The notes under the pieces were generated by a model. It searched no databases. It was not told the origin of the DNA and worked only from the letters and a program-made list of their open reading frames with translations. A stretch of 61,041 nucleotides of DNA from Chitinophagales bacterium (GTDB lineage: Bacteria; Bacteroidota; Bacteroidia; Chitinophagales; Chitinophagaceae): positions 1-61,041 of the forward strand of contig JAATGJ010000066.1 in the NCBI GenBank assembly GCA_015654695.1, read 5' to 3'. This document shows, one piece after another, positions 3,061-12,795 of this stretch (position 1 is its first letter; every line of letters starts with the position of its first letter). The position numbers were made by a program, and so were the translations under genes.

Positions 3061-3468
3061 CTATCCAACCGATCTCATCCTTGTTGTGTGCCAAACTTTT
3101 TTATCATTATCATATATCTTTCTTCTTATTTCCGGTCGTTTGCCGAAATTCAATAATAAACCTACTTCCATTTCAGTTGCTTTTAAATAATTGACAAGTT
3201 GATGTTCATTTTCTTCTGATAAACTCTCATTGGTTTTTAATTCACAAATGATAATATTTTCTACAATCATATCAGCAACATACTCGCCAACTACATTGCC
3301 TTTATAATGTACGTATATCCTTTTGTTTATTTCTGCCTTAAGACCCATTTCCGTTAACTCAATAAGTAAAGCATTCAGATACACCTTTTCAAGAAATCCA
3401 TACCCCAGTGTATTGTAAACCTTGTAAAATGCTTTTATTATTTATTCTGTTATTTCTTCCTGTTTCAT
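3061..3468 (-). pseudogene. GxxExxY protein, copy 1 (nonsense mutation)
   Basis: Reading from ATG at 3468 the protein starts MKQEEITE, then meets TAA at 3444-3442, then continues in the same frame as IIKAFYKVYNTLGYGFLEKVY and on to residue 135. The paralogue at 7900 has CAA (Gln) at this codon, so a single C-to-T change made the stop. The family (GxxExxY, PDDEXK_3-like) is named for G-x-x-E-x-x-Y, seen here as GYGFLEKVY; a PD-(D/E)xK-like signature follows (VADMIV, then CELKT). The remaining 107-codon open part would have to start at a GTG inside the motif, so it is probably dead. Family function is unproven; nuclease activity is inferred from the fold. Confidence 0.85.
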
Positions 3469-7526: not shown

Positions 7527-7900
7527 TTATACCTGTGTAGTCCGGATAGTGTGCCATGTGTTTTTATCGTTGTCAAATATTTTTCTTCTTAGTTCTGGCT
7601 TTTTACCGAAATTCAAAAGCAGACCAACTTCTATAGCTGTCGCCTTTAAATAATTGACTAATTGATTTTCATTATCCTCCCCTAAACTTTCGCTACCGCC
7701 AGGTCTGCTGAATAATCTCCAACTACATGTTCCTCGTAATATACAAATACTTTCTTTTGCCTGTCAACTCTGAATCCCATTTTAGCCAGCTCAATATACA
7801 TTGCATTCTCATACACTTTTTCCAGGAAGCCATACCCAGGTGTATTATACACTTTATAAAAAGCTTTTATAATTTGTTCAGTTATTTCCTGGTGTTTCAT
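7527..7900 (-). pseudogene. GxxExxY protein, copy 2 (31-nt deletion with frameshift)
   Basis: From ATG at 7900 the frame reads MKHQEITEQIIKAF through the family motif GYGFLEKVY to SADLAVAKV-stop. Just before that stop a second frame picks up the rest of the protein (ESLGEDNENQ to TWHTIRTTQV-stop at 7527). Comparison with copy 1 shows that about 31 nt are missing; they would encode the stretch containing the CELK element, i.e. the E-x-K of the PD-(D/E)xK-like centre. This copy is therefore broken at the presumed active site, while copy 1 is broken by a stop near the N-terminus. It lies between the permease and aminotransferase genes inside its own inverted repeats. Confidence 0.85.
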
Positions 7901-9366: not shown

Positions 9367-9915
9367 TTATTTAAAACCAATTCTTTTCCTGTTATCCCAG
9401 GTTTTCTGTTCAGCCTTGTCGTCTAATAGGTTTTCTATGGCGTTATAAATCTGATTTAATTGCGCGTCATGTCCCCCTATATGAAGTTTTAATTCTTTAA
9501 TCTGTTCTGCTAATTTGGAATAGTCTAAGATATGTTTTCTGAGCTGTATGAAAGTTTTTACTATGACGATACTCATTTTTACAGCCCTTTCACTTTTCAA
9601 AATATTTGCCAGCATGGCTACGCCATGCTCTGTAAAAGCATAGGGAGTGATATTAATGTTCCTTTTCTTTTGTGATGCGGTCACAAATTGTGACCGCATA
9701 TTCAACCATTCTTTTTTCGTTAGCCGAAAGATAAATTCCCCGGGAAACCTGTCTATATTTCTCTTTACTGCCTGGTTGAGAGCTTTAGTTGTTACTTCAT
9801 ACAAAACAGCCAGGTCAAAGTCCAGCATTACTTTCTGATCACGAATGACATAAATTTTACTGATGATGGTTTCATCAGGGATGAATTTGACTATTTTATT
9901 TTTTGTCCCTGGCAT
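9367..9915 (-). CDS. ORF6N domain protein, copy 1
   Basis: 182 aa with the ORF6N domain (about residues 12-105: IYVIRDQKVMLDFDLAVLYEV, then NIDRFPGEFIFRLTKKEW, then YAFTEHGVAMLANIL), followed by a helical tail to residue 170. ORF6N is a phage-derived DNA-associated domain often fused to other modules; here nothing is fused. The segment MRSQFVTAS is encoded by a perfect 25-bp palindrome (9675-9699), and the same palindrome occurs 20 bp upstream of the start codon. It is about 43% identical by eye to copy 2 at 10748-11290. It is not part of pyrimidine metabolism and probably arrived as a mobile unit. Molecular function unknown. Confidence 0.85.
   Translation of the reverse strand: MPGTKNKIVKFIPDETIISKIYVIRDQKVMLDFDLAVLYEVTTKALNQAVKRNIDRFPGEFIFRLTKKEWLNMRSQFVTASQKKRNINITPYAFTEHGVAMLANILKSERAVKMSIVIVKTFIQLRKHILDYSKLAEQIKELKLHIGGHDAQLNQIYNAIENLLDDKAEQKTWDNRKRIGFK
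9675..9699. repeat. Intragenic palindrome of ORF6N copy 1
   Basis: Perfect 25-bp palindrome, arms ATGCGGTCACAA and TTGTGACCGCAT around a single central base, within the coding sequence for MRSQFVTAS. Identical arms are found upstream of the gene at 9936-9960. Confidence 0.95.
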
Positions 9916-9935
9916 TAATTGTTAAAACATTTTTT

Positions 9936-9960
9936 ATGCGGTCACAATTTGTGACCGCAT
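9936..9960. promoter_or_regulatory. Palindrome upstream of ORF6N copy 1 (possible operator)
   Basis: Perfect 25-bp palindrome with arms ATGCGGTCACAA/TTGTGACCGCAT, ending 20 bp before the ATG of the ORF6N gene. Its position suits an operator or a 5'-leader hairpin. The arms match those of the palindrome inside the gene exactly, except for the strand of the central base. Confidence 0.7.
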
Positions 9961-9988
9961 CGGTTTTCAATCCGGCATTCATGATAAA

Positions 9989-10639
9989 TTATAATTTTCT
10001 GACTACATATACAATAACACCTATTATGAGTAAAAGAGGTATTGCCATTTTCCCGATCATATATCCAATTGATTCTGCATTTGACCCAAATTGTTGTTCT
10101 TTTATTGCAGTTGCATCGAAATGTACACTTTGGACAAACTGATCAATCTCACGTATTCCATAACCTGACAATGAGTTGTCAAGCGTAGCTGCTTGTAAGG
10201 CATACATTTTGTCATTAACAAGAAAAATGTAATTAACTGCTATAGGGATAATCTCGTTTTGGCAAAAAAGTTTTTTACAGGGGATGTTATCAATTACAGT
10301 ATCTACAATCAAACAATTCAACCCTTTTTCAGACATTGCTTTTAAAGCTCCTTTTGCCATTTCTGTAAGAGCTTTTTCCCAGGATACTGAATTATTAACA
10401 TTGATATTTGTTTCATTAGGCGTAATTGACAAAGCAAGTGTTGAATTTTTAGTTTGGGTTTGGAAAATTCTAAATCTCCTGCCTTTTTTATCTTTTTCAA
10501 AAGTTGTGTCGGTCTGAGATACATTGCCCGGTAAAGAAATGGTCAGATTTTCATCAATTTTCATTTTCTTCCAGACAGTATCTTGAGAAAATGAATTTGT
10601 GGCAGATATTAAAGCTAATATGTAAAACACTTTTTTCAC
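9989..10639 (-). CDS. Hypothetical exported protein with C-terminal membrane anchor
   Basis: 216 aa. A signal peptide (MKKVFYILALISATNSFSQ) is followed by a soluble region with DENLTISLPGNV near the start, and the protein ends in one hydrophobic helix (IPLLLIIGVIVYVV) and a basic tail RKL. This predicts an envelope protein anchored by its C-terminus. No enzymatic motif is recognised. It lies between the two ORF6N genes on the same strand, so it may be cargo of that insertion or an older resident of the gap between the aminotransferase and dehydrogenase genes. Confidence 0.7.
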   Translation of the reverse strand: MKKVFYILALISATNSFSQDTVWKKMKIDENLTISLPGNVSQTDTTFEKDKKGRRFRIFQTQTKNSTLALSITPNETNINVNNSVSWEKALTEMAKGALKAMSEKGLNCLIVDTVIDNIPCKKLFCQNEIIPIAVNYIFLVNDKMYALQAATLDNSLSGYGIREIDQFVQSVHFDATAIKEQQFGSNAESIGYMIGKMAIPLLLIIGVIVYVVRKL

Positions 10640-10658
10640 AAAGTATATAGATAAAATT

Positions 10659-10721
10659 CTAACTCATCCCATTCACCCCCGCTTCCGGGTTCCACTTCGT
10701 GGTACTCTTCTTCAGCTTCGT
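10659..10721 (-). pseudogene. Relic 3' end of a semialdehyde dehydrogenase gene
   Basis: Reads TKLKKSTTKWNPEAGVNGMS-stop on the minus strand, against TKLKKSTTKWNPEAGVNWMS-stop at the end of the intact dehydrogenase gene (11338-11400). 54 of 61 aligned bases agree and six of the seven differences are synonymous, which means both copies evolved as coding sequence before being brought together. The rest of the gene is absent upstream, where ORF6N copy 2 stands instead. Confidence 0.85.
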
Positions 10722-10747
10722 TTTCATCTTGAGTAAATTCTTTTTCT

Positions 10748-11290
10748 TCATTCGCCATCCTTCCTGTTAAATCCAATCATTCTTCTTTTTTGCTGTGGCG
10801 GGTTTAGCAATTGTTTCAATGCCTCAAATATCATTGCAATATCCTGCTTATTTTCTTTGACATCTTTTTCCAACATTTCCAATTTTGGCAACATGTCTTT
10901 ATTGTTGATAAGCAATTCTTTCATTTTGGTAAACACACGGATAATCTGGATGTGTACCTGTATTGCAACAGGACTATTTAACACCCCGGAGAGCATTGAA
11001 ACACCCTGTTCCGTAAACGCAAAAGGAAACTTCCGGACTCCGCCCCAACTTGAAGTCACAAATTGTGACTTCAAGTTTTCAAATTCCCTTTTTGCTAATT
11101 GAAACAGGAAATCTTTTGGAAACCGTTCAATATTTCTTCTGACCGCCTGGTTCAGAACTTTAGTCTCCACTCCATACAGTTCAGCAAGATCTTTATCCAG
11201 CATTACTTTTTGGCCACGAATGAAATAAATCCTGTTGATTATTGATTCATCAGGTAAATAAAGTATTTTCTTATTTGTTGATTTAGCCAT
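10748..11290 (-). CDS. ORF6N domain protein, copy 2
   Basis: 180 aa from ATG at 11290 (MAKSTNKKILYLPDES). A longer open frame runs back to 11374 but would overlap the dehydrogenase 3' end out of frame and read through the upstream palindrome, so it is rejected. ORF6N domain at about 12-108 (IYFIRGQKVMLDKDLAELYG, NIERFPKDFLFQLAKREF, FAFTEQGVSMLSGVL), then a coiled helical tail ending in basic residues. NLKSQFVTSSW is encoded over a 31-bp perfect palindrome. The gene is inserted exactly between the dehydrogenase stop and a relic of a second dehydrogenase 3' end. Function unknown. Confidence 0.85.
   Translation of the reverse strand: MAKSTNKKILYLPDESIINRIYFIRGQKVMLDKDLAELYGVETKVLNQAVRRNIERFPKDFLFQLAKREFENLKSQFVTSSWGGVRKFPFAFTEQGVSMLSGVLNSPVAIQVHIQIIRVFTKMKELLINNKDMLPKLEMLEKDVKENKQDIAMIFEALKQLLNPPQQKRRMIGFNRKDGE
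11047..11077. repeat. Intragenic palindrome of ORF6N copy 2
   Basis: Perfect 31-bp palindrome, arms AACTTGAAGTCACAA and TTGTGACTTCAAGTT around one base. It lies at the same codons as the palindrome of ORF6N copy 1 but with different arm sequence outside the shared GTCACAA core. Confidence 0.95.
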
Positions 11291-11302
11291 GCTCTTTACT
11301 TG

Positions 11303-11335
11303 AATCTTGATGTCACAATTTGTGACTTCAAGATT
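11303..11335. promoter_or_regulatory. Palindrome upstream of ORF6N copy 2 (possible operator)
   Basis: 33 bp, arms AATCTTGATGTCACAA and TTGTGACTTCAAGATT, one mismatch. It ends 12 bp upstream of the ATG at 11290 and 3 bp from the dehydrogenase stop. Its arms follow those of the palindrome inside the same gene (CTTGAAGTCACAA), not those of the other ORF6N gene. Confidence 0.7.
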
Positions 11336-11337
11336 TT

Positions 11338-12795
11338 TTAACTCATCCAATTCACTCCCGCCTCCGGATTCCATTTCGTCGTACTCTTCTTCAGCTTTGT
11401 CCAGAATTCAATCGAACTCTTTCCCGTAATATCACCCACACCAAACTTACTTTCATTCCAGCCACCAAAGGAGAATGGTTCTCTTGGTACGGGCACACCC
11501 ACATTTACACCAATCATACCAGCGCTGGCACGGTCAATGATGTAACGGGCCATACCGCCATTTTGTGTAAAGACTGATGCGGCATTGCCGTAAGGATTGG
11601 CATTTTCAATGGCTAATGCTTCATCCACCGTGTTAGTACGCATGATGCTGATAACGGGCCCGAAGATTTCTTCTGTCGCTACACTCATCTCCGGCTTTAC
11701 AAAATCTATCACAGTGGGGCCAACATAGGTTCCCTTTTCTTTTCCTTTTACTTTCGTATTACGTCCGTCCACCAGGATCTTCGCTCCCTGTTGCTCGGCT
11801 TCGGTTATATATTTTTCAATTCGTTCCTGTGATTCTTTACTGATAACAGCGCCTAAGTTTTCTCCCGGAACGATCTTCCTCGCCTCTTCACATATCTTGT
11901 CAATAATGCTGTCAACATTCCCTACGCCGATCATCGCGCTGGCTGCCATACAACGTTGCCCGGCGCAACCACTCATGGATGCAGCCACATTTTGCGCTGT
12001 CATGCCAGGAATAGCGTCGGGCAAAACCATTAAATGATTCTTTGCTCCGCCAAGCGCCAGGCATCTTTTATAATTAGAAGTGGCCCGCTGGTAAACGATC
12101 TTCGCTACTTTGGTAGAACCAACAAACGAAACAGCTTCAATACCGGGATGATCGCATATTGCTGTTACAATTTCACTGTCGCCATGAACGATATTAAAAA
12201 CACCATCCGGCAAACCGGCTTCTTTTAAAAGCATAGCTAAACGTCCGCAACTCAACGGAACTTTCTCCGATGGTTTGATGATCATACAATTTCCCAGCGC
12301 AATAGCATTGGGTAGTGTCCAGTTGGGAACCATACTCGGGAAGTTGAAAGGAACAATAGATGCCACTACACCCAATGCTACATGTTCTGTTCTGCATTCA
12401 ACTCCTTTACTTACTTCCAGCACTTCACCTGTTACTAATTGTGGGAGGGAACAGGCGAATTCGGTCAATTCAATACTTTTTTCAACTTCCGCGACTGCTT
12501 CACCATAGGTCTTGCCATTTTCTTCCTGTACCAGGTCGGCGAGTTCTTTCAAATGTTTTTCCAGCAAATATTTATAGCGGAAGAAAACCTGTACTCTTTC
12601 TTTAATGGGTGTTTTGCTCCAGGCGGGGAAAGCTTTTTTGGCGGCTTTTACGGCAGTATCCAGATCTTTGGCCGTTGACATAGGTACTTCTGAGAGTAAG
12701 TTGCCATCTACCGGGGAAATAACAGGAAGGCTGTGATCAGTGCCTGCATCAACAAAGATTCCGTTAATATAATTTTGGACTTTAGGGTATTTCAT
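11338..12795 (-). CDS. mmsA: CoA-acylating methylmalonate/malonate-semialdehyde dehydrogenase
   Basis: Aldehyde dehydrogenase of 485 aa, expected to convert malonate semialdehyde (from beta-alanine) or methylmalonate semialdehyde to acetyl- or propionyl-CoA with NAD+ and CoA. Catalytic Cys282 lies in GCAGQRCMAAS. The usual general-base glutamate region reads GGAKNHLMV, with Asn in place of Glu, as expected for the CoA-dependent subfamily. NWTLPNAIALGN and FVGSTKVA are cofactor-site motifs. It is the first gene of the minus-strand pyrimidine degradation block and is separated from the aminotransferase by the ORF6N insertions. The last 20 codons may have been replaced during insertion of ORF6N copy 2. 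Confidence 0.92.
   Translation of the reverse strand: MKYPKVQNYINGIFVDAGTDHSLPVISPVDGNLLSEVPMSTAKDLDTAVKAAKKAFPAWSKTPIKERVQVFFRYKYLLEKHLKELADLVQEENGKTYGEAVAEVEKSIELTEFACSLPQLVTGEVLEVSKGVECRTEHVALGVVASIVPFNFPSMVPNWTLPNAIALGNCMIIKPSEKVPLSCGRLAMLLKEAGLPDGVFNIVHGDSEIVTAICDHPGIEAVSFVGSTKVAKIVYQRATSNYKRCLALGGAKNHLMVLPDAIPGMTAQNVAASMSGCAGQRCMAASAMIGVGNVDSIIDKICEEARKIVPGENLGAVISKESQERIEKYITEAEQQGAKILVDGRNTKVKGKEKGTYVGPTVIDFVKPEMSVATEEIFGPVISIMRTNTVDEALAIENANPYGNAASVFTQNGGMARYIIDRASAGMIGVNVGVPVPREPFSFGGWNESKFGVGDITGKSSIEFWTKLKKSTTKWNPEAGVNWMS

Follow-up and report, generated by a model that had tools for sequence, protein, structure and literature searches.

What is a long palindrome doing within the codons of a predicted DNA-binding domain? 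The question is raised by a 61,041-nt stretch from a Chitinophagales bacterium (GenBank assembly GCA_015654695.1, contig JAATGJ010000066.1; hereafter the window), in which two genes for proteins with an ORF6N domain, copies 1 and 2, each carry one palindrome inside the gene and a second shortly before the start codon. ORF6N (PF10543) and the related KilA-N (PF04383) and Bro-N (PF02498) domains occur widely among bacteria and phages, and we know of no binding site for the ORF6N family nor, to our knowledge, of any target of the bacterial ORF6N, KilA-N and Bro-N proteins. Judging by the covariation described below, the palindrome inside each ORF6N gene is very probably the double-stranded DNA target of the protein encoded by that same gene.

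Palindromes of the two ORF6N genes

A reading of the window made from the sequence alone had described four palindromes with a common core, their arms agreeing within a gene and differing between the two genes, and all of this was confirmed (positions in Table 1). The core GTCACAA-N-TTGTGAC occurs with zero mismatches at exactly four sites in the window (9680, 9941, 11055 and 11312). The same reading took all four palindromes to be perfect, which holds for three of them but not for the one upstream of copy 2, where one pair in 33 bp is mismatched. The spacing between internal and upstream palindromes is similar in the two genes (257 and 261 bp). Both proteins score well above the curated PF10543 cut-off (114.7 and 122.5 bits vs. 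27.8) and, in a profile search, also show a weak match to pRha. The start of copy 2 was placed by us at the likely ATG at 11290, within an open frame that starts at 11374.

Conservation of the internal palindrome in the family

A discovery set of 209 distinct Bacteroidota ORF6N genes was assembled from 123 genomes (75 genera, 33 families); about 30 further ORF6N matches, counted by eye, lie outside it. One duplicate row (L046, the same as L001) is present in the shuffle, covariation, tabulation and tree analyses, and was dropped for all counts out of 209. An internal palindrome scoring at least 9 was found in 160 of the 209 genes, every one odd-centred, and 191 genes reach a score of at least 7, a number that includes a few weak palindromes not of the family type (e.g., L130). 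Eleven genes carry two such palindromes in tandem. After synonymous-codon shuffling, a score of at least 9 was seen in 10 of 630 shuffles, compared to 161 of the 210 real rows. The codon phase of the palindrome among the 160 genes is 0 in 144, 1 in 15 and 2 in a single gene, and in the 15 phase-1 genes the same core DNA is translated into VVANCDHL-, LVTICDQF- or LITICDNL-like peptides, indicating that the DNA rather than the peptide is conserved. The earlier claim that the palindrome constrains the amino acids around it, and that protein conservation is insufficient to account for it, is borne out by the second reading frame and by the loss of the palindrome on shuffling.

Covariation between protein residues and palindrome bases

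Half-site bases were numbered k1, k2, etc., outward from the centre, and residues by alignment column, using 192 rows including the duplicate. The mutual information with base k4 is 1.52 bits for column 40 and 1.23 bits for column 37, two columns of the segment ETK(36)R(37)LNQ(40)AVKRN. Those that the palindrome itself encodes score trivially, and all other columns give at most 0.27 bits for k4. The code residues are encoded about 90 bp from the palindrome, in the predicted recognition helix. Residue 40 pairs with k4 as Q-A, E-G, R/K-C and L-T. For the dinucleotide k5k4, CA is found with Q40 in 82 of 84 rows, CG with R37E40 in 65 of 66, and GC with R40, TC with K40 and TT with L40 without exception (13/13, 11/11 and 6/6, respectively). 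Base k7 tracks residue 36, being G with K36 (123/135) and A with R36 (29/36). Proteins that read bases directly prefer A for Q and, on the other strand, G for R or K and C for E or D, and the observed pairings agree with these preferences. Applied to the discovery set, the k4 rule is right in 181 rows and wrong in one, with eight asymmetric sites and one row without a rule.

The outer bases, k8 to k12, track residues 76–79, which come shortly after the palindrome-coded segment. For k10k9, GA occurs with R78 in 95 of 103 rows, AA with K78 in 38 of 38 and GG with G78 in 10 of 10. Column 62, just before the palindrome, also scores, with up to 0.44 bits for k9.

Descent, held-out genes and displaced sites

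A tree of the 192 rows was built without the trait columns, and independent pairs were drawn on supported branches, the values being means of 200 random pairings. On this tree, k4 has changed at least 58 times. The numbers of pairs in which site and residue differ in the same direction are 11.7 of 12 for k4=G with E40, 11.8 of 13 for k4=G with R37, 9.4 of 10 for k4=A with Q40, 10.8 of 13 for k7=G with K36, 10.2 of 13 for AA with K78, and 8.4 of 12 for GA with R78. Opposite pairs are absent for five of the six traits, k7 with K36 giving one such pair in 2 of the 200 pairings, and the remaining pairs show no difference in the site. By this comparison, common descent does not explain the covariation.

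A further 118 genes were taken from named GTDB genomes (the best 80 of 587) and viral contigs; 46 are labelled Bacteroidota, 35 are from viral contigs and 37 from other lineages, and 90 of them have an internal palindrome scoring at least 7. The 84 genes less than 80% identical to any discovery gene, with no identity filter among themselves and with phylum labels mostly from metagenome bins, served as a held-out set. The k4 rule was right in 82, wrong in one and met one asymmetric site, and the k5 rule was right in 80 (one wrong, three asymmetric). For k7, there were 56 right, 5 wrong, 11 asymmetric and 12 without a rule, and for k9k10 the numbers were 70, 1, 3 and 10. Mean accuracies with shuffled residues were 0.41 (k4), 0.58 (k5), 0.54 (k7) and 0.70 (k9k10), and because of its high baseline k9k10 contributes less to the proof, most of which comes from k4. 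Genes in which the k4 rule is right carry the labels of 13 phyla, and they include one from an unassigned deltaproteobacterium and 26 of 26 from viral contigs; the single failure (L237, Nitrospirota) involves a weak palindrome that is not of the same type.

Sites that lie elsewhere follow the same rule. Among the 46 genes without an internal palindrome (18 from the discovery set and 28 from the further genes), eight carry one or more of the family type in the 300 bp upstream, and in seven of these (L115, L128, L129, L268, L271, L277 and L296) the nearest one obeys the k4 rule, L128 having in addition a second, foreign palindrome farther away. In genes with two palindromes, by our own reading of the rows, the site nearer the wing codons obeys the k4 rule in all ten that have a rule, while the other site breaks it in four of the ten. 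Since most displaced upstream sites and the wing-nearer tandem sites obey the rule, a mere linkage of codons and palindrome is unlikely. The proposal of the sequence-only reading that the ORF6N domain may bind its own site is strongly supported by the covariation of both helix and wing.

Predicted structure and proposed mode of recognition

An AlphaFold2 model of copy 1 (monomer without DNA; 75 relatives; pLDDT 83.6, pTM 0.70) has helices at residues 32–39 and 43–52 joined by a short turn, a third helix at 67–72 and a less confident loop at 73–91. Residues K44, A45 and Q48 lie on helix 43–52, the second helix of the predicted helix-turn-helix, and the segment encoded by the palindrome (codons 73–81) falls in the loop. 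Foldseek detected no solved structure at E ≤ 0.001, and a sequence search for solved structures returned 18 weak matches, the best of which (E 0.0021) is apparently a designed coiled coil.

In the mode of recognition that we propose, the protein, with its predicted helix-turn-helix and wing, would presumably act as a dimer. The inner bases k7, k5 and k4 would be read by residues 36, 37 and 40 of the recognition helix, and the outer bases k8 to k12 by wing residues 76–79. Because the DNA encoding the wing would itself be the target, gene and target could not be separated by transfer or duplication.

Upstream palindromes and palindrome arrays

The sequence-only reading also proposed that the arms of the upstream palindrome match those of the internal one of the same gene. 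A gene's own internal site recurs upstream in 24 of 186 genes, compared to 9.4 ± 2.5 when pairings are permuted (maximum 18 in 2000 permutations), so the match is real but confined to a minority of genes. Nor is an upstream palindrome a general feature, most ORF6N genes having none, an outcome that the sequence-only reading had named in advance as one that would refute its proposal: 58 family-type palindromes lie within 300 bp upstream of the domain, in 45 of the 209 genes. With these two counts, upstream pairing was rejected as a general rule. The 58 comprise 21 cognate and 32 non-cognate palindromes plus five in genes that have no internal site (cognate chance 0.21, p 0.0017). Matches of the non-cognate sites to other ORF6N genes of their genome did not exceed chance (8 of 22, with 7.2 expected). 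The primary site is the internal one, and the upstream match is an addition, though an enriched one.

Genes with only an internal palindrome lie within 80 bp behind a same-strand ORF (open reading frame) in 61 of 142 cases, compared to 7 of 41 for genes with an upstream palindrome (p 0.003). A shortage of upstream room accounts for this difference no less well than a portable operator.

Arrays of three or four palindromes, differing and mostly of foreign specificity, were observed beside ORF6N or KilA-N genes at five loci (Table 1). Their spacing is mostly 28–44 bp, with exactly 34 bp three times at L213 and one gap of 60 bp at L275.

Possible functions of the internal site

The likeliest purpose of the site, at roughly even odds, is negative autoregulation, in which the palindrome would serve as a portable intragenic operator and some genes would have another one to assist it, about 250 bp away at the start codon. 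Autoregulation fits the start-codon sites as well as the paired sites of both window genes.

Self-immunity comes next in likelihood, though on the whole we doubt it. The protein would then be a DNA-targeting defence or exclusion factor, with its own palindrome marking the carrier as self and switching the protein off. There is a precedent in BstA, a prophage defence protein with a KilA-N-like DNA-binding domain, as described by Owen et al. (2021, PMC8585504). The cognate element, aba, is a short sequence in the gene's own DNA, at its start, that acts as DNA, differs between homologues and turns BstA off, sparing the DNA that carries it (PMC8585504). Aba is, however, a 63 bp element that overlaps the start codon and depends on direct repeats of CCCGCC, and not a palindrome within the domain. 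Both window proteins (9367–9915 and 10748–11374) match PDC-S05 of the PADLOC database (best E 1.6e-54 and 1.7e-61), but PDC-S05 is a candidate defence family, and is mentioned in PMC12988326 in a passage that concerns tree building. Paralogues within a genome have an identical site in one of 120 pairs, compared to 5.7 ± 2.3 expected (P 0.012), and such avoidance of shared sites would suit self-immunity, but is equally expected of independent autoregulators. The constant intragenic position and diversity of the sites fit self-immunity too, as do the turnover of genes at one locus between species and the internal palindromes of KilA-N genes, both described below.

Site searches and the remaining alternatives

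Known mobile palindromic repeats, such as REP and the Rickettsia palindromic elements, raise a further possibility, that a repeat of this kind has inserted into ORF6N genes. The eleven genes with tandem internal palindromes could be seen in this light, as could the arrays of different palindromes beside some genes, such as the evenly spaced one at L213. Insertion of a mobile repeat is nevertheless highly improbable, because the palindrome keeps a constant position in the domain and agrees in sequence with the helix of the protein that the gene encodes, and because its distribution is not genome-wide. In the 5.42 Mb host genome, the core TCRCAANTTGYGA occurs at 10 sites, seven of them within or just upstream of ORF6N genes and three in unrelated coding genes, where extended arms are absent, and the reversed control pattern has no site at all; a dispersed REP-type repeat was rejected on these counts and on those for 198 genomes given below. 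The same genome has five ORF6N matches, each with an internal palindrome at the same place but with differing arms (TGCGGTCACAA, TGAAGTCACAA, GGAGGTCGCAA, GAGGTTTCAA and TTATCACAA), that of the fifth gene (L005) being translated in another frame. The site of the L004 type, allowing three mismatches, was found only in its own gene, compared to two places for its reversed control. In 198 genomes from the order, the longer pattern GGTCRCAANTTGYGACC has 47 sites, and according to our comparison of positions 39 of them lie inside an ORF6N match or at most about 140 bp upstream of one (in one case the ORF6N gene is broken and the site is at its 3' end); the reversed control gave none. The sequence-only reading had also considered a recognition or copying site of a mobile unit; nothing speaks for this directly, even though turnover of the genes is seen at one locus.

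A pattern scan of viral contigs returned at least 120 stretches and gave an ambiguous picture, with four sites near an ORF6N gene among the matches listed, several others that look terminator-like by eye and, by our estimate, tens of chance matches expected. Lone ORF6N-type palindromes with no ORF6N gene nearby were seen on several viral contigs (L439, L496, L531, L545, L546 and others), and some of these may be terminators.

Palindromes of 25–33 bp could also form RNA stems, with the upstream one close to the start codon, so hairpins in the leader and coding region might control translation or stability. This was another suggestion of the first reading, and it was not borne out. Mismatches within the arms show no strand bias towards G.U pairs (A.C 30, G.T 25, p 0.59), which argues that the site acts as double-stranded DNA. 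A loop needs no symmetry, yet k2 and k3 beside the centre are symmetric and near-invariant (191 and 187 of 192 rows), and covariation with a recognition helix is not predicted by RNA pairing. Control by RNA hairpins is accordingly most unlikely. That conservation of the protein alone yields the palindrome has next to no chance of being right and was excluded, since SQ.(V/A)T is indeed common in the family but the palindrome is lost on shuffling, is encoded in another frame in 15 genes and has non-coding copies upstream.

Several observations weigh against binding of each protein to the palindrome of its own gene, or against autoregulation as its purpose. No internal palindrome scoring at least 7 is present in 18 of the 209 discovery genes or in 28 of the additional 118, and the upstream palindrome of L241, which has no internal site, breaks the k4 rule. 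Of the upstream family palindromes in genes having an internal site, only 21 of 53 are cognate, and non-cognate arrays such as that of L213 are not explained by self-binding. Eight of the 47 GGTCRCAANTTGYGACC sites are away from any ORF6N gene; the stretches around them contain none, and a few look terminator-like by eye. The outer-arm covariation might still partly reflect linkage, as the wing codons adjoin the palindrome and column 62 also scores. Since Foldseek found no solved relative, the geometry of DNA contacts rests on a monomer model free of DNA, and a position about 200 bp into the gene (+200) is an unusual place for an autoregulatory operator.

Genomic context of the ORF6N genes

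Both window genes lie between genes for an aldehyde dehydrogenase and an aminotransferase (names assigned by eye). The 3' end of the aldehyde dehydrogenase gene is repeated beyond the 3' end of copy 2, and this direct repeat flanking copy 2 suggests an insertion, or an exchange with the corresponding locus of a related species. The same locus was compared in six of the seven genomes of the genus (G006 was left out). One congener has an ORF6N gene carrying two palindromes and another an ORF6N gene of the RE class, while two have neither an ORF6N nor a PDDEXK_3-like gene. In a further congener (L351), the stop codon of the aldehyde dehydrogenase gene is followed by a PDDEXK_3-like gene (identified by eye) flanked by long inverted repeats, an arrangement that resembles a small mobile unit. 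The window, too, has PDDEXK_3 genes, at 3061–3384 and 7682–7900.

Table 1. Coordinates of the ORF6N genes, palindromes and associated features (window positions, except for the arrays, which are numbered within the loci named)
Feature	Position	Strand	Remarks
ORF6N gene copy 1 (182 aa)	9367..9915	-	Pfam PF10543, E 2.4e-33
ORF6N gene copy 2	10748..11290	-	Pfam PF10543, E 9.1e-36
Copy 1 internal palindrome, 25 bp, perfect: ATGCGGTCACAA, centre base, TTGTGACCGCAT	9675..9699		Codons 73-81, predicted wing
Copy 1 upstream palindrome, 25 bp, perfect, arms as in the internal one	9936..9960		20 bp before ATG
Copy 2 internal palindrome, 31 bp, perfect: AACTTGAAGTCACAA, centre base, TTGTGACTTCAAGTT	11047..11077		
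Copy 2 upstream palindrome, 33 bp, one mismatched pair	11303..11335		12 bp before ATG
Copy 1 predicted recognition-helix codons, residues 43-52, with code residues K44, A45, Q48	9760..9789	-	Covariation and AlphaFold2 helix
Copy 1 wing-residue codons N86-I89 (alignment columns 76-79), covarying with the outer arms	9649..9660	-	
Copy 2 predicted recognition-helix codons, TKVLNQAVRR, with K, V, Q at the code positions	11135..11164	-	Aligned to copy 1
3' end of aldehyde dehydrogenase gene, direct-repeat member	11336..11400		65 nt
Second copy of aldehyde dehydrogenase 3' end, 88% identical, beyond the copy 2 3' end	10657..10721		65 nt
Palindrome arrays	L213 608-710; L275 4550-4694; L292 363-427; L260 3967-4035; L366 1293-1367		

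Palindromes in KilA-N and Bro-N genes

KilA-N genes (L358–L382 and L392–L405) have an even-centred palindrome around CGAATTCG within the domain, with variable arms. A score of at least 7 was reached in 33 of 36 rows and of at least 9 in 28 of 36, compared to 6 of 180 shuffles, but several rows are near-identical and the 36 are not independent cases. Base k5 shares 1.01 bits with helix column 35, several other columns scoring similarly in this small set, and row by row the pairing reads N-T, D-G and K/R-C. Among Bro-N genes (L406–L435; 12 of the 30 loci yielded no gene to the seed used), palindromes such as GGGGTACAA-N-TTGTACCCC score at least 9 in 10 of 18, compared to 2 of 54 shuffles, the palindrome of L421 being elsewhere in the gene. 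The palindromes of both families are a lead and not yet a code. Phage_pRha (PF09669) had no match in any of 148 Bacteroidota genomes.

A bolder reading, which we consider unlikely, is that ORF6N, KilA-N and Bro-N form a superfamily built on self-recognition. Each gene would then carry, in the codons of its DNA-binding domain, the one site that its product binds strongly, and the reading would follow a simple code (at one position Q-A, E-G, R/K-C and L-T, with parallel rules in KilA-N). Such genes would mark themselves as self in the manner of BstA/aba and would be mobile and orthogonal to one another, and arrays of foreign palindromes might be collected immunity tokens against other members.

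Comparison with known systems

Going by their titles, none of the publications found to name ORF6N deals with target sites, and no earlier report of internal palindromes was found among the papers listed in a search of the ORF6N, KilA-N, PDC-S05 and recognition-helix literature, a search that mostly did not extend to subscription journals. ORF6N targets become immediately testable with the sites described here, which offer a compact code by which a winged helix may recognize DNA.

Operators within genes are well known, as in the internal operator of GalR, O2 of LacI, and the roadblock sites of CcpA and CodY. The ORF6N palindromes resemble these in lying inside a transcribed gene. Some of the known operators are paired with a promoter-near one at a distance of a few hundred bp, to which the matching site near the start codon of some ORF6N genes may correspond, and the predicted helix-turn-helix fold would add a likeness to autoregulated repressors. 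In those systems, however, the operator lies in a regulated gene, whereas the ORF6N site is part of the sequence that encodes the DNA-binding domain of the regulator itself, is found in records labelled with 13 phyla, and changes along with the protein. For the LacI family, a recognition code has been sought from regulators and their sites by way of local regulation (PMC2978694). In the ORF6N family, regulated genes need not be guessed, since each gene contains its own probable target, so that the code can be read directly from genomes and tested.

BstA and aba provide the other comparison, and the ORF6N palindromes are possibly a general form of the BstA self-immunity element, whose mechanism is left open in PMC8585504. 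Element and protein have cognate specificity in both systems, in ORF6N as judged by covariation. The defence activity of BstA/aba is described in that paper, while a defence activity of ORF6N would be putative. Unlike aba, which is longer and overlaps its start codon, the ORF6N element is a palindrome of 25–33 bp in wing codons, about 200 bp into the domain, and is only sometimes present at the start codon as well; in the window, none of the four palindromes contains CCCGCC, and the upstream copies lie 12–20 bp before the ATG.

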